A stretch of DNA of 64,000 nucleotides from Rhodothermales bacterium. Its GTDB lineage: Bacteria; Bacteroidota; Rhodothermia; Rhodothermales; UBA10348. A program made the position numbers and the translations under genes. Position 1 is the first letter of the stretch. Each line of letters begins with the position of its first letter. The notes under the pieces were generated by a model. The model saw nothing but the letters and a program-made list of their open reading frames with translations. It was not told the DNA's origin and did no database searches. Shown here piece by piece: positions 49,519 to 60,932 of this stretch. Location of the stretch: NCBI GenBank assembly GCA_017643395.1, contig JAEPNP010000001.1, positions 1,075,806 to 1,139,805 of the forward strand. Direction: 5' to 3'.

Positions 49519-49549
49519 TTGTGCGACCAACGGCGGCCGTGTACCTTCG
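49519..49549 (+). promoter_or_regulatory. possible promoter of the cobalamin operon
   Basis: TTG (49519-49521) and TACCTTCG (49542-49549) are 20 bases apart, fitting the Bacteroidota pattern TTG-N(17-23)-TAnnTTTG except for one base. Transcription would begin about 25-35 bases before the riboswitch aptamer, as expected. Confidence 0.4.
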
Positions 49550-49585
49550 CCGTGTTCTTTTCAATCACGCGCTCGGTCCACACAC

Positions 49586-49750
49586 GTGGCGAAGAGGGAA
49601 TCCGGTGCCCGCCCAGGCGGAACTCCGGAACTGTACCCGCAACTGTAGCCGATCCGCCCGACCAAGGACGTCTGCCCCACTGCTCGCGTGGGAAGGTGGC
49701 AGACTGAGGTCGGGATGCACGGGTCGGAAGTCAGGAGACCTGCCGACTGC
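49586..49750 (+). promoter_or_regulatory. cobalamin riboswitch (B12 box aptamer)
   Basis: Conserved blocks of the adenosylcobalamin-type aptamer occur in order: GAATCCGGTGC (from about 49598), ACTGTACCCGCAACTGTA (49630-49647), CCACTG with GGGAAGG (about 49677-49696), and the B12 box AAGTCAGGAGACCTGCC (49728-49744). Cobalamin binding normally turns down uptake genes. The 3' end is approximate. Confidence 0.95.
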
Positions 49751-49805
49751 GAAGCCAATGCGACCTCCGGGAAGAGGGGTGTGCGGCCATGTCGACCGTC
49801 GATCT

Positions 49806-49832
49806 GGGCCCGCATCTCCATGAGGTGGGCCC
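49806..49832 (+). promoter_or_regulatory. ribosome-site hairpin, likely riboswitch expression platform
   Basis: GGGCCC (49806-49811) can pair with GGGCCC (49827-49832), extended inward by a few more pairs. The 3' arm holds the Shine-Dalgarno GAGGTG (49822-49827) and ends one base before the ATG of the receptor gene. No T-run follows, so control is more likely translational than by termination. Confidence 0.55.
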
Positions 49833-51647
49833 ATGTTTATATCTCCCAGATTCTTGGGGGCCGCCCTCCTGATGGCGGCGTCCACCAGCGCTGACCCGGT
49901 CCTCGGCCAGAATGCCGAGGACTCCGTGCGGGTGATTCTGGACGAGATTCAGGTGAGCGCAATCGCGTCGGGGCCGGTACGCTATGTCGAGCTGCGCTCC
50001 CCGCAGCACGTTGGCGGGGGCGATTTGGCGGCCGCCCTCTCGGGCGAGTTGGGACTATTCGTTTACCGCCGCAATCCGGGAGGGCCGGCAACGCCCCGGA
50101 TTCGGGGCTGGGACGGCTCTCAGGTGGCAGTGGTGCTCGAGGGCGTTCGACTGATCGAGCCCCAGAGCGGGCAGGTGGATCTGTCCATGATCCCGGCGGC
50201 ATTTCTCGAACGCGCGCGTCTTGTCCGCAGTACGGCCACCGATCAGGGCGCGATGGGTGGACAGGTCGACATGACGCTGCTTCAGGCCAGTGACGGGCTG
50301 ATGGTGCGTCTCGCGGGCGGAGGCGGAGCGTTCGGGGCACGACACGGCGCCGTGGTGCTGGGCGGCGACAGGCGCCGGGCCGGCGTGACGCTGGGATTGC
50401 ACGCGTCCCGGGCCCCAGAGTCATGGCCCCTCGCCGAGAATCGCCGTCGCATCGGTGCCGGTCGGGAGCGACAGAGTGCGGTGGCGACCCTCAACTGGCG
50501 CACCGGCACGGCCCGGTGGACGATCAGTCATCTTTCGTCGCACGCGGACACGGCGCTTCCGGGTCCCGCGAACGGAAGGCCACTGCGTGCCAGCCAGGAG
50601 GACCGACTCGGTGTGACTGCTCTTGGGGCCTCCGGTGTGCGGGAGCGCACCCTGTGGCGTGCCCAGGCCGTCTGGCAGACTTCGGGAGCAACCTTCAGAG
50701 ACGCCGACGCAAATCTCGATCGGAGCAGCCAAACCTCCAGAGCCTCGCTCACCGCAACCTTCGGGCGTGAACGATGGGACCTGCAGGGCGGAGTCGACAC
50801 GCAGTACCTGAAGGGCGGTCCTGAAACCGAAACCGGCGGGTTCGTGGATATCTCGACACGGCAGCCCACCAGCCGTCTCGTGATATTCGCGGGCCTGCGA
50901 CAGGAAGTGCGCACGGCCCGGTACCGGGCCGTGCCCCGCGTTTCGGTGTCCACGAGAGGGTCCGGATTGCTGGTTTCGGTCAGTGCGGGCCGAAGCGTGC
51001 GACATCCCACTTTTGTGGAGCGCTATTGGCAGCCCGGAGGCAATCCGGACCTGCGTCCGGAAGTCGGCTACACGGTGGACGCGGGGCTGGAATCCCGCCT
51101 CGGAGCGCTGGTGCTGAAAACGACGGCTTTCGCCGCGTGGCTCGACAACCGCATCGTCTGGCAGCCCTCCCTCGTCATGTCCGGCCTCCAGGTATGGACG
51201 CCGACCAATGTTGGTCGCGCGCGATCGACGGGTCTCGAATGGCGTGCCCTCTGGGCCGGGAACCGTGTGGCCGTCGGAATCGACGGCAGCTACACCCGCG
51301 CCACGGACCGCAGCGATTCCCGATCTGCATCCTTCGGGCACCAGCTCAGATACGTGCCCCGCACGGTCATCGCGGTCCCGGTGCGATGGGCCGTGGGGGC
51401 CGTGGAGCTGTCCGCCTCGGCACGCTACACCGGCCATCGCCCGATTGCGTCCGATGGTTCATTCGAGGAGCCCCCGTACACCGAGCTCGACCTGGCACTG
51501 CGCACGACTCGTCGGCTCGCACAGGCCGACGCCACCCTGTCAATCATGCTGCACAACGCGCTCGACATCCCTTTTGAAACCGTGCGGCTCTATCCGATGC
51601 CGGGCCGACATCTGACTCTACACCTCAACATCGATCTCTCCTCATGA
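49833..51647 (+). CDS. btuB: BtuB-like TonB-dependent cobalamin receptor
   Basis: The 604-residue outer-membrane protein has a signal peptide, a plug domain (about residues 35-140, with GGPATPRIRGWDGSQVAVVLEGVRL) and a beta barrel ending in an aromatic-poor strand HLTLHLNIDLSS. The cobalamin riboswitch directly upstream makes B12 or another corrinoid the likely ligand. Around the start the sequence resembles BtuB-type plugs more than SusC; there is no carboxypeptidase-regulatory domain. It overlaps the next lipoprotein gene by ATGA. Short length agrees with BtuB (about 600 residues). Confidence 0.88.
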   Translation: MFISPRFLGAALLMAASTSADPVLGQNAEDSVRVILDEIQVSAIASGPVRYVELRSPQHVGGGDLAAALSGELGLFVYRRNPGGPATPRIRGWDGSQVAVVLEGVRLIEPQSGQVDLSMIPAAFLERARLVRSTATDQGAMGGQVDMTLLQASDGLMVRLAGGGGAFGARHGAVVLGGDRRRAGVTLGLHASRAPESWPLAENRRRIGAGRERQSAVATLNWRTGTARWTISHLSSHADTALPGPANGRPLRASQEDRLGVTALGASGVRERTLWRAQAVWQTSGATFRDADANLDRSSQTSRASLTATFGRERWDLQGGVDTQYLKGGPETETGGFVDISTRQPTSRLVIFAGLRQEVRTARYRAVPRVSVSTRGSGLLVSVSAGRSVRHPTFVERYWQPGGNPDLRPEVGYTVDAGLESRLGALVLKTTAFAAWLDNRIVWQPSLVMSGLQVWTPTNVGRARSTGLEWRALWAGNRVAVGIDGSYTRATDRSDSRSASFGHQLRYVPRTVIAVPVRWAVGAVELSASARYTGHRPIASDGSFEEPPYTELDLALRTTRRLAQADATLSIMLHNALDIPFETVRLYPMPGRHLTLHLNIDLSS

Positions 51648-52732
51648 GACTTCTCCCCTGTCTGATTCTTGCCGGTCTGCTCCTTGCCGGCTGCGATTCA
51701 AACGACTCCGGCATGGAGGGTGCGCCCGCGGCTCGCGCCGTGCTGGTCGCCAACGGCGGCAATTTCTCGGACCAGAACGGGTCCGTCTCCACCCTGAACC
51801 TGGAAACCGGTGGGACCTCCACAGGACCCGCGATGGACGGCTTTGTCCAGGCCGTCGTGCCGGCAGACACGCTGCGGCTGGTGCTGGTCAACACGTTCTC
51901 TGGCGGGAGAGTGGACATCACCGGTCCGGACGGCACCGTACTCGCCTCTCTGGAGGACATTGATGCGCCGCGCGCAGCTGCGATCGTGGACGGCACGGCC
52001 TACGTCACCACCTTCGCCTTCGACGGCTCCGGAAACGTGCTGGCCATCGATCTCGCGACGGCCGCGTTGACGTCAACCTTTGCAACGGGCAGCTATCCGG
52101 AAGGCATCGCTCATGCGTCCGGTCGACTCATCATCGCCAACTATGGCTACATCGGCAGCGGCCGCTCTGTCACGGTGATCGACCTGGCGGACGGCTCCGC
52201 GCAGGAACGTTCCATTGCGTGCGATGGGCCCCGCGACGTCGTAGTCTCCGGTGAAATATTGAACATCGTCTGCCTTGGCAAAACCGTCTACAACGACGAT
52301 TTCAGCCAGATTCTGGAACAGACCGGCGGGCAGGTTCACTTTCTGAATGCCGTTTCCCTCACCGAGCTGGATCGCATCGAGTATGACCACCAGTTTGGTT
52401 CTACGGGTGGCGGCCAGGGTGCGGCCGCATCGGCCTCGGAACTCGCCGTTCTGGATCCTCAGTCAGAGATGATTCGACGGTTCGAGCTGGAGACGCGCAC
52501 TGAGCTGTCCGCGTGGAATTTTGACAATGAAGGCACCTACGTGGGCCTGTCCGGTATTGGATTCGGGTCAGATCGGTGGTTCGTCGGCCGCATGGCCCGA
52601 TCGGCCGGTGGTCCGTTTCCGGACTATACGGCTGCCGGTCAGCTTGTCGAAGTTCGCGCTGCGGACGGGTCCGTACTGGCCGAGCATGGTGTGGGTCAGG
52701 CACCTACGCATGTCGCCGTCATCATTCAATAG
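51644..52732 (+). CDS. beta-propeller lipoprotein, BtuG-like
   Basis: The 362-residue protein begins with a lipoprotein signal and lipobox LLAGC (Cys17). The rest is made of repeated four-strand blades of the YncE/seven-bladed type, e.g. RAVLVANGGNFSDQNGSVST and GRLIIANYGYIGSGRSVTVI. Bacteroides BtuG proteins are surface lipoproteins of this fold that bind cobalamin with very high affinity and sit on BtuB. Here the gene is coupled to the riboswitch-controlled receptor (ATGA overlap), so the same role is probable. Direct sequence similarity to BtuG was not tested. Confidence 0.78.
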   Translation: MRLLPCLILAGLLLAGCDSNDSGMEGAPAARAVLVANGGNFSDQNGSVSTLNLETGGTSTGPAMDGFVQAVVPADTLRLVLVNTFSGGRVDITGPDGTVLASLEDIDAPRAAAIVDGTAYVTTFAFDGSGNVLAIDLATAALTSTFATGSYPEGIAHASGRLIIANYGYIGSGRSVTVIDLADGSAQERSIACDGPRDVVVSGEILNIVCLGKTVYNDDFSQILEQTGGQVHFLNAVSLTELDRIEYDHQFGSTGGGQGAAASASELAVLDPQSEMIRRFELETRTELSAWNFDNEGTYVGLSGIGFGSDRWFVGRMARSAGGPFPDYTAAGQLVEVRAADGSVLAEHGVGQAPTHVAVIIQ

Positions 52733-52739
52733 CGCAATC

Positions 52740-52952
52740 ATGCACATAGACCGCTGCGTCTGTGAAGGCGTCACGTTCAAGGTCCTGAAGGAGGTGGCAG
52801 ACCGTTCAGGCTGCCGCACCCTTCAGGACCTGCGGGACGAAGCCCGGTTTGCGACCGGGTGCGGTTTGTGCAGACCGTACGTGGCCGAGATGCTGCGCAC
52901 CGGCCGGACCTCGTTCAGCGAGATCATCGTGGAGAAGGCTGCGGAGGAGTAG
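52740..52952 (+). CDS. BFD-type [2Fe-2S] protein
   Basis: The 70-residue protein has four cysteines in the pattern C6-x-C8 ... C41-x2-C44, the [2Fe-2S] ligands of the bacterioferritin-associated ferredoxin (Fer2_BFD) fold, with the typical C-G-L-C segment. It lacks a signal peptide and is cytoplasmic. It begins 7 bases after the propeller lipoprotein and is likely under the same riboswitch. Such ferredoxins release iron from bacterioferritin or serve other redox enzymes; no bacterioferritin is near. A role in cobalamin reduction is only a guess. ATG 52740 is chosen because the domain begins there. Confidence 0.85.
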   Translation: MHIDRCVCEGVTFKVLKEVADRSGCRTLQDLRDEARFATGCGLCRPYVAEMLRTGRTSFSEIIVEKAAEE

Positions 52953-54314: not shown

Positions 54315-55844
54315 ATGGCGCAAACGCCGCGTGGGACGCGCATGAAGCACGAGCCCAAGCCTTCCATCCAAACGCTCGGAGCCCTGCGGGAGTCGGGGTA
54401 CCGGGTGCGCAGCGTCAAGGACGAAGTCCGGAGCAATCTCATCGCAGCGCTTCGTGACGGGCGAGACCCGTTCCCGGGTGTGCTCGGTTTTGAGCAGACG
54501 GTCATCCCGCAGATTCAGAACGCCATTCTGGGGCGCCACGATTTCATTCTGCTCGGACTGCGCGGGCAGGCCAAGAGTCGCGTTCTGCGCCTGCTTCCGG
54601 GCCTTCTCGACGCCTGGATCCCGGTTGTCGAAGGCTCCGACCTCAACGACAACCCGTTCGCTCCGGTATCCAAGTACGCTCGCGATCTGATGGAACAAGC
54701 GGGAGACGAGACGCCCATCAGCTGGCTGCCACGTGCCGAGCGCTACGGAGAGAAACTGGCGACTCCCGACACGTCCATTGCCGACCTCATCGGAGACATC
54801 GACCCCATCAAGGCGGCGCATCGCAAGCTGACCTACGCGGACGAAGAGGTCATTCATTTTGGCATCATCCCGAGGACCAATCGCGGCATCTTCGCCATCA
54901 ACGAACTGCCCGATCTGCAACCGCGCATTCAGGTGGGTCTGCTCAACATCATGGAGGAGCAGGACATCCAGATTCGCGGATTCAACATCCGGTTTCCCCT
55001 GGATCTGTTGATGGTATTCTCGGCGAACCCCGAGGACTATACCAACCGGGGCAGCATCATCACGCCGCTCAAGGACCGCATCGACAGCCAGATTATCACG
55101 CACTACCCCAAGAGCGTGGAAACCGGTATCGCCATTACCGATCAGGAGGCCTGGCAGGATCGTGATTCCGCGGTCAGCGTGGAGGTACCGCACCTGTTTC
55201 GTGAGATCATAGAACAGGTGGCGTTCGAAGCCCGGGCGTCCGAGTACGTGGACCAGAACTCCGGCGTGTCCGCTCGCATGACCCGTGCGGCGCTGGAGAA
55301 CCTGATCTCGGCGGCCGAGCGTCGGGCCCTGCTGGCCGGCGAGCGGGAGACCTACGCCCGCGCTTCGGACCTGTGGTTTATCGAGCCGGCAGTGACCGGC
55401 AAACTCGAACTCGTTTACGAAGGCGAACAGGAGGGTGCCCAGACGGTGGCCCAGGTACTGACCGGCCGAGCCCTGAAAGCGACCTTCTCACGTCACTTCC
55501 CGGCTCCGGATACCGATCGCGCGCTGTACCAGAAGGTGCTGAACTGGTTTGCCTCCGGCGGCACGCTGAACCTGCACCACAACATGGCTCTGTCCGAGTA
55601 TGCCTCGGCCCTGGACACGGTCGATGGGCTGCGCGACCTGGTGGACCGCATCGCCAAACCGGACTCTCCGGAGGCGAGGGCCACCATGATGGAACTCGTC
55701 CTCGAGGCCTTGCACCAGCACTCCATGCTGGGCAAGGAAGTGGCTGGAGCGGCCCGAAGTTTCGTGGACATGATGGGTTCCATGCTGTCGGGAATCGGGT
55801 CTGCTGACCCGGACGAGTTTGACGAATTCGACGACGAACTCTGA
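54315..55844 (+). CDS. MoxR/magnesium-chelatase-type AAA+ ATPase
   Basis: The 509-residue protein belongs to the Bacteroidota-wide 'magnesium chelatase' AAA+ family: the P-loop is LGLRGQAKSR (Ala in place of Gly before the Lys, a family trait as I recall), with NELPDL in the Walker B position and sensor FSANPEDYTNRGSIITPLKDR. The C-terminus is acidic (DPDEFDEFDDEL). These ATPases usually pair with a vWA/CoxE-like protein, and together remodel a target; no such gene lies next to it here. It overlaps the M1 peptidase start (TGATG), which suggests cotranscription. ATG 54342 is an alternative start. Confidence 0.87.
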   Translation: MAQTPRGTRMKHEPKPSIQTLGALRESGYRVRSVKDEVRSNLIAALRDGRDPFPGVLGFEQTVIPQIQNAILGRHDFILLGLRGQAKSRVLRLLPGLLDAWIPVVEGSDLNDNPFAPVSKYARDLMEQAGDETPISWLPRAERYGEKLATPDTSIADLIGDIDPIKAAHRKLTYADEEVIHFGIIPRTNRGIFAINELPDLQPRIQVGLLNIMEEQDIQIRGFNIRFPLDLLMVFSANPEDYTNRGSIITPLKDRIDSQIITHYPKSVETGIAITDQEAWQDRDSAVSVEVPHLFREIIEQVAFEARASEYVDQNSGVSARMTRAALENLISAAERRALLAGERETYARASDLWFIEPAVTGKLELVYEGEQEGAQTVAQVLTGRALKATFSRHFPAPDTDRALYQKVLNWFASGGTLNLHHNMALSEYASALDTVDGLRDLVDRIAKPDSPEARATMMELVLEALHQHSMLGKEVAGAARSFVDMMGSMLSGIGSADPDEFDEFDDEL

Positions 55845-57817
55845 TGCGCACGCGGCGCGCCGCCTCACTCGCGGTACTCGCCGCGACCGTGGCCTGTGTG
55901 GCAGGCGTCGAGGCACGGCAAGCGGCCCGCATCCCTGCCGATAAGGCCGTGGCCTGGCCCGCCGCTGAGCACAAGCACGCCGTGCGGACTTCCGCACTGC
56001 CTGGCTCCAGGGCCTCTACGTCGTTTGACGCAGTCCACTACGGGCTGGATTTCGAGATCAGTCTGACTCCAAATTATCTGCTCGGTGTGGCGGTGGTCAC
56101 TGGTCGGGCGCTCGACAGCATGTCCGAACTCGCCCTCGATCTGGACGAGAACATGCAGGTCGATTCAGTAACCACCGCCGCCGGCGAACACCTCACGTTC
56201 TCACACGCGGACCAAACCCTGCGCATCCAGCTTGCGACTCCCGCTGCCGCAGGAGAAATGGTGCGGGTGACGGTGCACTATCAGGGCTTGCCCCGCGAAT
56301 CGGGTCTTGCCGGCTTTGTGTTTACGGAGGTGTCAGGCAATCCGGCTGTATGGACCTTGTCGGAGCCCTACGGGGCACGCACCTGGTGGCCAGGTCGGGA
56401 CCATCCGTCGGACAAGGCTGATTCGGTGTCCCTGGCCATCACCGTGCCGAAGCCGATGACGGCCGCGTCCAACGGACTGCTCATCGGTACAGACGACCTG
56501 GGAGACCGACGGCGCTTCCGTTGGGAGCACAGCTACCCCATCGCCAGCTATCTGGTCTCGATAGCGGCGGGCGTCTACGACATCAATTACCAGATCTACG
56601 ACCGACCGCCGGACCTGGCGCATGACCTCGGGCCCCTGAGTCTACCGATGGAGCACTACTCCTACGCGGGAAACGGGGCGTTTGAAGGCAATCACCCGCA
56701 GTTCGGCTTTCGCTTCATTCAGGACATATTCCCGGTGATGGAGCGCTGGTTCGGGCCGTACCCGTTTGCGCGTGAGAAGTACGGACACGCCCAGTTTACC
56801 TACGGGGGCGCCATGGAGCACCAGACGCTGTCCTCCATGACGACGAACTACCAGGGCACCATGGCGCATGAGTTGGCGCATCAGTGGTTCGGAGACAAGA
56901 TCTCGCCCGGGTCCTGGCGGGATCTGTGGCTGAATGAGGGGTTCGCCACGTTCGGGGAACTGGCCTACTGGAAAGAGTCCGCCTTCCCGGAGGTGTACCA
57001 GCAGGTGTTCGACATCTATTACAACCGGGCCCTGGAGGCGCAGGGCACGCTGGTGGTGCAGGACACGGTGGACGTGACCGGCATGTTTGCGCACAGCCGG
57101 GTGTACAGCAAGGGCTGGATGGTACTCCGCATGCTGCGAGGCATGCTCGGCGAGTTTCAGTTTGCCGCGCTGATGCGTGCTTGGGCAGACGATCCGCAGG
57201 CTGGTTTCGGGGTAGCGTCCACATCGGACTTCCAGCGTGTGGCGGAGACGGTCAGCGGACTCGACCTGGGTACCTTCTTCCGTCAGTGGGTGACCGAGGG
57301 AACGGGTTTTCCCGTCTATGCGATTCGATGGGGCAAGCGAGCAGACGTGAACGGTTGGGTGACCGAAGTCACGGTTGAGCAGACCCAGCCCGAGCCGGTG
57401 TTTCAGATGCCGCTGGACCTCCGGGTCGGCTCGGGCTCCGATTCAGAGAACGTCATCGTGTTCAACCAGAGTCGATTGGCCACCTACTTCGTGAGGACCG
57501 ATTTCGAGCCTGCTACCGTCGAGCTTGATCCGGAGCGCTGGGTTCTGCGTGCTCCGGAGGTGCTCGTCACCGGGCTGGAGTCGGCACCCAAGCCCTCGGA
57601 GCTCCTGAGCGTCTACCCCAACCCGGCGCGGTCCCGGATCCACGTGCACGCGGCGGAGCCGCGTTCGGTTATCGAGCTGGTCGATGGGCTCGGTCGCGTG
57701 ATCCGACGCGAGAGGGGCAACGCTTCAGGTCAGGTTCAACTCGACGTTTCTGGTCTGCCCCCTGGCGTGTACGCCGTACGCACGTCTCGGGGCACGAGAC
57801 TGTTCGTACACTTCTGA
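55844..57817 (+). CDS. M1-family metallopeptidase with T9SS C-terminal sorting domain
   Basis: The 657-residue protein has a signal peptide, the M1 N-terminal beta domain, the exopeptidase segment GGAMEHQT (around 320-327) and the zinc site HELAH (342-346) with downstream glutamate in NEGFA (E365). The last 70 residues, starting LSVYPNPARSRIHVHA and ending LPPGVYAVRTSRGTRLFVHF, are a type-A Por secretion sorting domain, which sends the protein through the type IX secretion system to the cell surface or medium. It probably trims peptides outside the cell. It is coupled to the AAA+ gene and followed after one base by a GNAT gene. Confidence 0.93.
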   Translation: MRTRRAASLAVLAATVACVAGVEARQAARIPADKAVAWPAAEHKHAVRTSALPGSRASTSFDAVHYGLDFEISLTPNYLLGVAVVTGRALDSMSELALDLDENMQVDSVTTAAGEHLTFSHADQTLRIQLATPAAAGEMVRVTVHYQGLPRESGLAGFVFTEVSGNPAVWTLSEPYGARTWWPGRDHPSDKADSVSLAITVPKPMTAASNGLLIGTDDLGDRRRFRWEHSYPIASYLVSIAAGVYDINYQIYDRPPDLAHDLGPLSLPMEHYSYAGNGAFEGNHPQFGFRFIQDIFPVMERWFGPYPFAREKYGHAQFTYGGAMEHQTLSSMTTNYQGTMAHELAHQWFGDKISPGSWRDLWLNEGFATFGELAYWKESAFPEVYQQVFDIYYNRALEAQGTLVVQDTVDVTGMFAHSRVYSKGWMVLRMLRGMLGEFQFAALMRAWADDPQAGFGVASTSDFQRVAETVSGLDLGTFFRQWVTEGTGFPVYAIRWGKRADVNGWVTEVTVEQTQPEPVFQMPLDLRVGSGSDSENVIVFNQSRLATYFVRTDFEPATVELDPERWVLRAPEVLVTGLESAPKPSELLSVYPNPARSRIHVHAAEPRSVIELVDGLGRVIRRERGNASGQVQLDVSGLPPGVYAVRTSRGTRLFVHF

Positions 57818-58667: not shown

Positions 58668-60932
58668 ATGCGCTGGCCCGTCATTCTGGCTTTCCTCCTG
58701 GTCCTGGCACCCCTGTCGGTCCGTGCGCAGTTTGCGGCCATCACGGGTACCATCACCGAACAGGCGAACGGCGATGCGCTGCCAGGCGCCTCGGTCGTGG
58801 TGCGTGATGATGCCGGTACAACACGCGGTACCCTGACCGACGTCACGGGCAGCTTCTTCCTGAATCGGTTGCGCCCGGGTACCTATGTGCTGTCGGTGTC
58901 GTTCGTGGGCTTCGCCACGAGGCAGGACACGCTGCAGCTCGGGTTTGATCAAACCGTGGTCTACGACGCTTCGCTTGAGGCGACCCGCGAGGTGCTGGAC
59001 GAGGTGGTAGTGCAGGAGCGGAGAGGGGTTGAAGCGAGGTCGACGGCCGGTCTGGAGGTGGTGCGCCCCTCGGACCTGGCGCGGGTACCCATGCCCGACG
59101 TTGCCTACGACCTGGCCGGCTATCTGCTGACGCTTCCCGGATTCGTCTCGACGGGTGATCGCGGTGGACAGCTGTTTGTCAGAGGGGGCACCTCCACGCA
59201 GAACCTGGTGCTCGTGGACGGCATCCCGGTATTTCAACCCTTCCACATCGTGGGGTTTTATTCGGCCTTCCCCGCCGACATCATTTCCTTTGCGGACGTC
59301 TATGCAGGAGGCTTCGGGGCTCGATATGGCGGGCGCATTTCCTCGGTGGTGGACATCACGACCACGAACGGCAACAAGGAACAGGCGGAAGGTGCGGCCT
59401 CGGTAGCTCCTTTTGTGAGCGGGCTGCGGTTCTCGGTACCCGTGGAGCCGGGCAAGGTGTCACTGACCGGCAGTTTCCGCCAATCGGTCATCGAGCAGGT
59501 AGCACCCGAGATTCTGGGCCAGGAACTACCCTTCAGCTTTGGAGACCGCTATCTGAAGCTGCACGCCTTCCTGAATCAGACCAGCAGTCTGTCCGTCACT
59601 GGTCTTCGCACGTTCGACCAGGGAAACCTGGGCAGCACGGAGGCCGAGCGGCCATCCCGCTGGGAAAATGATGCGTTCGGTTTCCGCTACACCTTCCTGC
59701 CGGAGACGCAGGCCGTGATGTCGCAGTTCGCCATGCACTATTCCCGCATGAAGAGCTCGTACCAGCCGGCTCCGGAGGTAGAGCAGCGCGCGGATGTGGA
59801 TGCGTTCACCATGGAAATCCTCATCGCGTACCTGCTTGGGCCCACCCGCATCAATCTGGGTCTGTTCGGTACGCTGAACCGCTTCGACTACGATCTCGGC
59901 GCACGGTCCCTGCCTGTGAGCGTTGGCGTGACCAGCGGCGGCGTTTATGCGGATACCCAGTTTGAGCTCAGCCCGAGCTTTCGCATCGAGCCGGGCATCC
60001 GGTACGAAGTGTTTTCCAGGGGAGTGCATGGCTCGGTGGCGCCACGGTTGCGGGCCATGTGGCTTCCGTTCGGCCCCGGATCAAGGCAGCAGGTGTCCTT
60101 TGCGTGGGGCCGGTACCACCAGCAGATCGTTGGCCTGAACAACGAGCAGGATGTCGCCGATGTGTTCACGATCTGGGCCCCGTCGCCGGCAAATGAACCG
60201 GTGCCGCAGTCCAGTCACTACATCCTCGGGATTCAGCAACGGGCTACCCGCTGGCTGGAGTTGTCGGCCGAGGCGTATCACAAGGACCTGAATCATCTGG
60301 CGTTTCCGGTCTTTGAGGATCGCCCGAACGGACTTGCCGGATTCTCGCGAGTCTCCGGATTTGCACGCGGACTGGATCTGCGCACACAGGTCACTCGACG
60401 CAATTTCTTTGCGTCCGTCGGATACACCCTCGCCAACGTGGAGTACACCTGGTCCGGTGTTCTCCGACCGGTAGCAAGCGGGATCGACGTGGTGCATCCC
60501 GCGGCCGGCGGCGCCTTCAATCCTCCGCACGACAGACGGCACACGGTGAACGCCTCATTCCAGGCTACACGGGGCCAGACCAGACTCAGCGCGCGGTGGC
60601 AACTGGGCTCCGGCCTGCCGTTCACCCAGATCGAAGGGTTCTATCGCGATTTTGCCCCTGACCCGCGAAATCCGGAAGGTCTCCTGACCACTACCGGCAC
60701 CACCCTTGTCGCCCGGGGAGAACCGTACAAGGCCCGTCTGCCGGCGTACCACCGGTTGGACGTATCCCTCGAGCATGACCTGGTCGGTCCGCGCACACTT
60801 ACCACCTTCCAGGCCGGCGTGATCAATGTGTATGACCGGGCCAACATCTTCCAGTACAACTTCTTCTCGGGGGAGCGCCTGAACCAGTTGCCGCTGGTAC
60901 CCTCCCTGGGACTCAGCGTGCAGTTTCGCTAG
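58668..60932 (+). CDS. TonB-dependent receptor with N-terminal regulatory-like domain
   Basis: The 754-residue outer-membrane protein has a signal peptide (about 1-21), a CarboxypepD_reg-like beta domain (about 25-105: TGTITEQANGDALPGASVVV ... GTYVLSVSFVGFATRQDTL), a TonB plug (GGQLFVRGGTSTQNLVLVDG) and a barrel that ends SLGLSVQFR. This is a common Bacteroidota receptor type without a SusD partner, often next to a DUF4249-like lipoprotein, as here. The ligand is unknown. The next gene begins on the base after its stop. Confidence 0.92.
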   Translation: MRWPVILAFLLVLAPLSVRAQFAAITGTITEQANGDALPGASVVVRDDAGTTRGTLTDVTGSFFLNRLRPGTYVLSVSFVGFATRQDTLQLGFDQTVVYDASLEATREVLDEVVVQERRGVEARSTAGLEVVRPSDLARVPMPDVAYDLAGYLLTLPGFVSTGDRGGQLFVRGGTSTQNLVLVDGIPVFQPFHIVGFYSAFPADIISFADVYAGGFGARYGGRISSVVDITTTNGNKEQAEGAASVAPFVSGLRFSVPVEPGKVSLTGSFRQSVIEQVAPEILGQELPFSFGDRYLKLHAFLNQTSSLSVTGLRTFDQGNLGSTEAERPSRWENDAFGFRYTFLPETQAVMSQFAMHYSRMKSSYQPAPEVEQRADVDAFTMEILIAYLLGPTRINLGLFGTLNRFDYDLGARSLPVSVGVTSGGVYADTQFELSPSFRIEPGIRYEVFSRGVHGSVAPRLRAMWLPFGPGSRQQVSFAWGRYHQQIVGLNNEQDVADVFTIWAPSPANEPVPQSSHYILGIQQRATRWLELSAEAYHKDLNHLAFPVFEDRPNGLAGFSRVSGFARGLDLRTQVTRRNFFASVGYTLANVEYTWSGVLRPVASGIDVVHPAAGGAFNPPHDRRHTVNASFQATRGQTRLSARWQLGSGLPFTQIEGFYRDFAPDPRNPEGLLTTTGTTLVARGEPYKARLPAYHRLDVSLEHDLVGPRTLTTFQAGVINVYDRANIFQYNFFSGERLNQLPLVPSLGLSVQFR

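Follow-up and report, generated by a model that had tools for sequence, protein, structure and literature searches.

Introduction

In gut Bacteroides, vitamin B12 is captured at the cell surface by the BtuB–BtuG complex, whose riboswitch-headed locus encodes a BtuB-type receptor and a seven-bladed propeller lipoprotein (PMC10404256, PMC6143338). We analysed a stretch of 64,000 nucleotides (hereafter the window) from a Rhodothermales bacterium (assembly GCA_017643395.1, contig JAEPNP010000001.1, positions 1,075,806 to 1,139,805), in which positions 49519–52952 hold a comparable arrangement: a cobalamin riboswitch, genes for a BtuB-type receptor and a BtuG-type propeller lipoprotein and, added to the pair described in Bacteroides, a gene for a [2Fe-2S] ferredoxin of the BFD family. 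We propose that the locus joins a BtuB–BtuG capture system to a cytoplasmic ferredoxin that would serve corrinoid reduction, a reading for which we consider the balance to be even. No BFD gene in a B12 operon was seen in the titles and abstract openings of the papers found by literature searches, a source that does not prove its absence.

Electron delivery to corrinoids is described for the flavin-dependent CobR or free flavin (PMC7242693), for the corrinoid reductase PduS (PMC2982820) and for the corrinoid/ferredoxin pair HgcA–HgcB, in which HgcB is a dicluster ferredoxin (PMC7305189). The same job, electrons to a corrinoid, is the one that we propose for BFD, which differs from the flavin-dependent CobR and from the dicluster HgcB in consisting of one [2Fe-2S] BFD domain whose gene stands in an operon headed by a B12 riboswitch. 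PduS, for its part, is an Fe-S flavoprotein. To our knowledge, the reduction of imported oxidised or cyanated B12 before use is understood in few species, and for most bacteria we know of no physiological electron donor assigned to the step from cob(III)alamin to cob(II)alamin. A dedicated corrinoid-reducing BFD protein would, if the proposal is right, fill this step.

Architecture of the operon

The riboswitch aptamer (RF00174) occupies positions 49557–49761 of the plus strand and aligns with the full model (positions 1–189) at 84.7 bits, compared with a gathering threshold of 31.5 (E-value 1.9e-19); it is the sole copy detected in its genome. The genes btuB (49833–51647, 604 residues), btuG (51644–52732, 362 residues) and BFD (52740–52952, 70 residues) follow on the same strand. 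The receptor matches PF00593 and PF07715 above cut-off, and the BFD protein matches PF04324 at 34.9 bits with a cut-off of 26. The receptor and propeller genes share a 4 bp ATGA overlap, read from the sequence, and 7 bp separate the propeller stop codon from the BFD start. These data bear out an earlier note on this DNA, which had described a cobalamin riboswitch atop three tightly coupled genes, the third encoding a small [2Fe-2S] BFD protein. Position 49519 is a TTG open reading frame (ORF) start located 38 bp 5′ of the aptamer, whereas 52952 is the end of the BFD stop codon, and a convergent amidohydrolase gene terminates 9 bp past that codon.

By eye, the BFD protein has no signal peptide. 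Its four cysteines are invariant in all 33 aligned homologues, and the CxC...CxxC arrangement is retained in 65 of 65 homologues, a count limited to those scoring above 50 bits. The fold resembles that of Pseudomonas aeruginosa Bfd (4e6k/6e6r; TMq 0.59–0.62, root-mean-square deviation (r.m.s.d.) 1.4–1.7, E-value 0.04–0.09, probability 0.99–1.00), with which BFD also has the CxC...CxxC cluster ligands in common. Weak BFD matches were also obtained in ORFs of 1170–1200 residues; the one checked (L116) encodes a fusion resembling nitrate reductase (Molybdopterin, Pyr_redox, Fer2_BFD) and was set aside.

Conservation of the BFD gene in the B12 operon

The order was sampled with 100 genomes, our own and 99 relatives, belonging to 15 families. 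A BFD match is present in 73 of them and a cobalamin riboswitch in 86; the riboswitch searches of this set and of the phylum set described below used stricter filters, with which weak riboswitches are lost. In 54 of the 73 BFD-bearing genomes, the BFD gene follows a co-oriented riboswitch at a distance of 2.07–5.0 kb (median 3.2 kb), and in a further 10 btuG is found directly 5′ of BFD, the contig ending there. Families with riboswitch-linked BFD genes number 10 of the 15 sampled, and f10 adds btuG-linked ones, which gives 11 of 15. In a genome with one riboswitch, a randomly placed gene would fall on the right strand in the 5.1 kb that follow it with a probability of about 0.0006–0.001 per genome, a figure that applies to each genome separately, the sampled genomes being kin and so not independent. 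BFD does not accompany the operon by chance. The search for co-occurrence with btuB and the riboswitch that the earlier note had called for shows it as a regular third member within the order.

We examined 60 chosen loci of the order (L061–L120). In the operon loci of families f2–f13, the tested flank genes of the window do not stand beside the operon, as judged by blastp with the window genes (query coverage below 40% ignored, fetched stretches only), with two exceptions (an M1-peptidase match of 25% in L082 and a match of 66% in L073). The trio is retained while its surroundings change across families. Its composition can vary, as family f4 has btuB–BFD without the propeller, observed in L082, and a Peripla_BP_2 gene, BtuF-like by eye, sits between btuG and BFD in L090. 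The iterated propeller profile was unspecific and also tagged long M1-peptidase ORFs (e.g. L066:6126–8186), probably due to a shared C-terminal tail of the type IX secretion system (T9SS), and the receptor profile also tagged other TonB-dependent receptors. Key identities were rechecked by blastp with the window genes and, for the G343 locus discussed below, by profile comparison.

B12-dependent enzymes in BFD-bearing genomes

The genome containing the window encodes MetH, class II NrdJ, methylmalonyl-CoA mutase and a PduO-type transferase, and CbiC was not found in it; judged by its gene content, the organism is a B12 consumer without the CbiC corrin-ring marker. Across the 100 genomes of the order, the MetH activation domain and NrdJ are each found in 85. 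In genus g22, neither the MetH activation domain nor NrdJ gave a match in any of 10 genomes, and a mutase and BFD are each present in 9 of 10 (the mutase and CbiC searches covered 25 and 23 chosen genomes, respectively). Because g22 keeps BFD and the mutase without the MetH activation domain or NrdJ, a BFD acting at a step that B12 enzymes share, for instance reduction of the corrinoid ahead of adenosylation, would fit best.

The receptor and the propeller lipoprotein

The receptor sequence matched four chains in the PDB, every one a Bacteroides BtuB. With the BtuB equivalog TIGR01779, the receptor scores 77 bits and falls short of the cut-off of 599.7; this is still its best-scoring NCBIfam model. 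We use the label BtuB-type because the equivalog cut-off was failed though the nearest solved structures are Bacteroides BtuBs. The receptor is predicted to import corrinoids as a BtuB-type transporter.

The propeller has no Pfam family above cut-off, and as a single sequence it found no match in the PDB. A profile of 31 relatives (A2) aligned with BtuG chain 8p97_B over positions 2–357 of 364 (E-value 4.4e-37) and with 3dsm_A over nearly the full length (E-value 6.6e-33); the top row of this search was the archaeal repeat propeller 1l0q, with a value of 1.2e-46 summed over five short repeats. A Foldseek search with the predicted model (pLDDT 91.7) returned BtuG in all of rows 1–16 (best E-value 2.3e-16), and the model superimposes on 3dsm with a Z-score of 35.2 (r.m.s.d. 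2.0 over 298 aligned residues), while other propellers reach Z-scores of about 29–34 (33.8 for 1l0q). Sequence identity to BtuG is ~14% in the structural alignment, and the GNF, QS and PRY motifs are common to both proteins in the profile alignment, by eye. By profile and predicted fold, the propeller is a BtuG homologue. The fold comparison suggested in the earlier note thus agrees with its view of a BtuB–BtuG pair in a distant high-GC relative, the window having a GC content of 63%.

The aromatic residues Trp194, Trp272 and Tyr316 of BtuG2 are named in section 6 of PMC10404256 as narrowing the upper-ligand cavity. None of the three is conserved in the profile alignment, by eye, and the corrinoid pocket may therefore be differently shaped from that of BtuG2. 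Compared with the Bacteroides BtuB–BtuG systems, the Rhodothermales locus is thus set apart by its low identity to BtuG, by these aromatics and by the added BFD gene, as well as by relatives that use a T9SS sorting domain in place of the lipobox.

The propeller of the window carries a lipobox, read by eye, and would probably catch B12 at the cell surface. In eight relatives of the A2 set, the propeller has no lipobox by eye and ends in an extra C-terminal domain, which passed the T9SS sorting-domain cut-off in 7 of 7 tested (29.7–43.9 bits, cut-off 23). The loci in which a T9SS type A C-terminal sorting domain replaces the lipobox of a BtuG-type propeller are L073, L084, L093, L101, L103, L110 and L114. 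Within the clade, this protein seems to use lipid anchoring and type IX secretion interchangeably, and the T9SS tails independently suggest a surface location for the propeller family. The window also encodes an M1 peptidase with a T9SS sorting domain (55844–57817), from which we take it that the organism probably has type IX secretion. The locus extends BtuG-type capture beyond gut Bacteroides, the propeller apparently being displayed at the surface in either of two ways.

Proposed function of the operon

We propose that low intracellular adenosylcobalamin would allow the riboswitch to permit expression of the transcript. BtuG, attached to the outside of the outer membrane, would capture corrinoids and pass them to BtuB for TonB-driven import. 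In the cytoplasm, BFD would ferry electrons from a reductase to the freshly imported corrinoid, most likely serving the reduction of cob(III)alamin to cob(II)alamin and possibly the removal of the upper ligand, and the reduced corrinoid would then go to the PduO-type adenosyltransferase and the B12 enzymes. We propose this redox role, for which the earlier note had also seen BFD as a possible link between import and cytoplasmic cobalamin reduction, from the gene context; a [2Fe-2S] protein retained in the B12 operon by 11 of 15 sampled families offers a candidate for corrinoid reduction that can be tested directly. In its most specific form, which we put forward tentatively and with some doubt, the proposal holds that BFD is a dedicated corrinoid-reducing, single-domain [2Fe-2S] ferredoxin under B12-riboswitch control, giving cob(II)alamin for the adenosyltransferase and B12 enzymes, and that display of the propeller shifts between a lipid anchor and type IX secretion.

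Several observations weigh against a strict B12 role of BFD. Bfd potentials lie near −250 mV, which is too high for unaided formation of cob(I)alamin; the step from cob(III)alamin to cob(II)alamin is the likelier one for this reason. In 9 of the 73 BFD-bearing genomes of the order, BFD stands apart from the B12 uptake genes. Conversely, G003 keeps btuB–btuG, and directly after btuG it has a BFD-like remnant (L104:2834–3043) that scores 19 bits and has lost the motif. In families f14 and f15 (20 genomes), a riboswitch is found in 17 genomes, and BFD is not required for B12 use, because all 20 have the MetH and NrdJ domains and none has BFD. Outside the order, BFD lies within 8 kb downstream of a riboswitch in only 3 of 52 BFD-bearing genomes, and the riboswitch is absent from five loci outside the phylum and from L128.

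Eight of the nine unlinked genomes of the order belong to the family of the window, f1 (G006, G007, G010, G013, G015, G017, G020 and G024). In these, BFD adjoins TolC, MlaC and a nucleotidyltransferase-like gene, which are also neighbours of the intact operon. BtuB was found in none of the eight at an E-value of 1e-30 (a search of 15 chosen genomes), CbiC likewise in none, and the riboswitch search gave no match in seven; G024 has a riboswitch (40.9 bits) on a contig other than that of BFD. The MetH activation domain and NrdJ are present in all eight, a PduO-type transferase in seven (no match in G006) and mutases in 7 of 7 tested. Presumably B12 enters these organisms through a different system, or their assemblies have missed the receptor. 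As they keep MetH and NrdJ, the data still fit a role of BFD after import. In the ninth genome, G032, BFD and btuB–btuG are located at separate sites.

The contexts beyond the order come from a phylum-wide draw of 296 genomes, of which 75 have an A1-type BFD, 52 of these outside the order; we examined loci from 20 of these 52 class- and phylum-level BFD genomes and five loci outside the phylum. A cobalamin riboswitch is present in 52 of 52 BFD genomes outside the order, a count confined to BFD-bearing genomes. The three linked genomes are G114 and G165 (f16, about 3.1 kb, btuB–btuG–BFD) and G343 (7.5 kb); a DUF6580 gene follows BFD in the f16 locus L201. In the distant relative G343, one strand carries a riboswitch, a BtuG-like propeller gene, btuB, a DUF6580 gene, metH, BFD and genes for an AAA kinase, a dCMP deaminase and cobA (CobA/BtuR), with 5 bp between metH and BFD. 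Profile comparison supports its propeller (probability 98.9, E-value 2.6e-17) and its receptor (E-value 2e-56). The riboswitch search of BFD-homologue loci covered 12 of 49, and in the six searched alongside the outside-phylum set and L128 the riboswitch lies upstream of BFD. The earlier note had counted a BFD gene elsewhere without B12 context against its proposal, and the data bear out this objection in part: BFD lies apart from the B12 uptake genes in the nine unlinked genomes of the order, and outside it only the three linked genomes have BFD within 8 kb downstream of a riboswitch.

Alternative explanations

BFD could instead be a general [2Fe-2S] electron carrier that serves a number of enzymes in the cytoplasm, such as those of deoxynucleotide metabolism or Fe-S repair, and be found in the operon since its clients include B12 enzymes. 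This explanation accounts for the rarity of riboswitch linkage outside the order and agrees with the gene neighbourhoods there. All 11 loci inspected from families f17–f20 (L203–L210 and L217–L219) have a dCTP deaminase gene beside BFD, and 10 of them, all but L208, have an rsmE-like gene on the opposite flank; these assignments were made by eye, with a Pfam check for L203 alone. In G351, BFD precedes class II NrdJ by 0.55 kb, and in G222 a class I-type ribonucleotide reductase (RNR) large subunit is encoded nearby; the remaining f40 and f43 loci, and those outside the phylum, showed no B12 neighbours. A general carrier is harder to reconcile with the order itself, where, amid changing surroundings, 10 of 15 sampled families have BFD behind a riboswitch and an eleventh has it behind btuG. 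We regard a general ferredoxin role as a serious rival, although on the whole an unlikely one.

Two narrower roles can be weighed in the same terms. BFD might reactivate a single B12 enzyme, MetH or NrdJ, by restoring oxidised cobalamin to its active state, as the adjacency of metH and BFD in G343, the proximity of NrdJ in G351 and the presence of the MetH activation domain and of NrdJ in 85 of 100 relatives each would allow. Genus g22, which retains BFD in 9 of 10 genomes and matches neither enzyme, and families f14 and f15, which have both enzymes and no BFD, argue against it, and we do not favour a role restricted to MetH or NrdJ, which appears improbable. BFD might also be a classical bacterioferritin-associated ferredoxin that releases stored iron, its position in the operon being incidental. 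It has the Pfam family and the fold in common with Bfd, whose textbook partner is bacterioferritin, and weak, sub-cut-off bacterioferritin matches (TIGR00754) occur in 11 of 40 chosen genomes. BFD differs from Bfd in its conserved B12 linkage and in scoring 17.3 bits with the Bfd equivalog model NF007803, for which the cut-off is 75; moreover, TIGR00754 was above cut-off in 0 of the 40 genomes, our own giving no match, in a search confined to this family and not extending to other ferritins (it was above cut-off in 2 of 14 control genomes). We consider this explanation, which was tested and is not favoured, very unlikely. A shared corrinoid-reduction step remains our preferred reading.

Leader region and other observations

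The leader between the aptamer and btuB (49762–49835, plus strand) contains two candidate stems, based on its sequence and folds. A GC-rich hairpin lies directly 3′ of the aptamer, where G001 and G002 have, by eye, similar sequence; the second stem, GGGCCC/GGGCCC, abuts the btuB start codon. The folding energy of the leader is no better than that of shuffled sequences (z −0.14), and a promoter and terminator scan returned zero plus-strand promoters and zero terminators. The two stems could possibly constitute a translational expression platform of the riboswitch.

Elsewhere in the window, positions 58668–60932 encode a second TonB-dependent receptor, SusC-like and with a carboxypeptidase-regulatory domain, a relative of which is found near BFD in four f1 loci (L061, L064, L066 and L069). 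The class II NrdJ encoded near BFD at L212:1773–5495 carries an intein with a LAGLIDADG domain. Cobalamin riboswitches also precede genes for B12-independent isozymes, namely class I RNR genes (nrdB, nrdA) or metE together with nrdB, at L113:2860–7236, L115:2564–3643 and L227:1286–4651.

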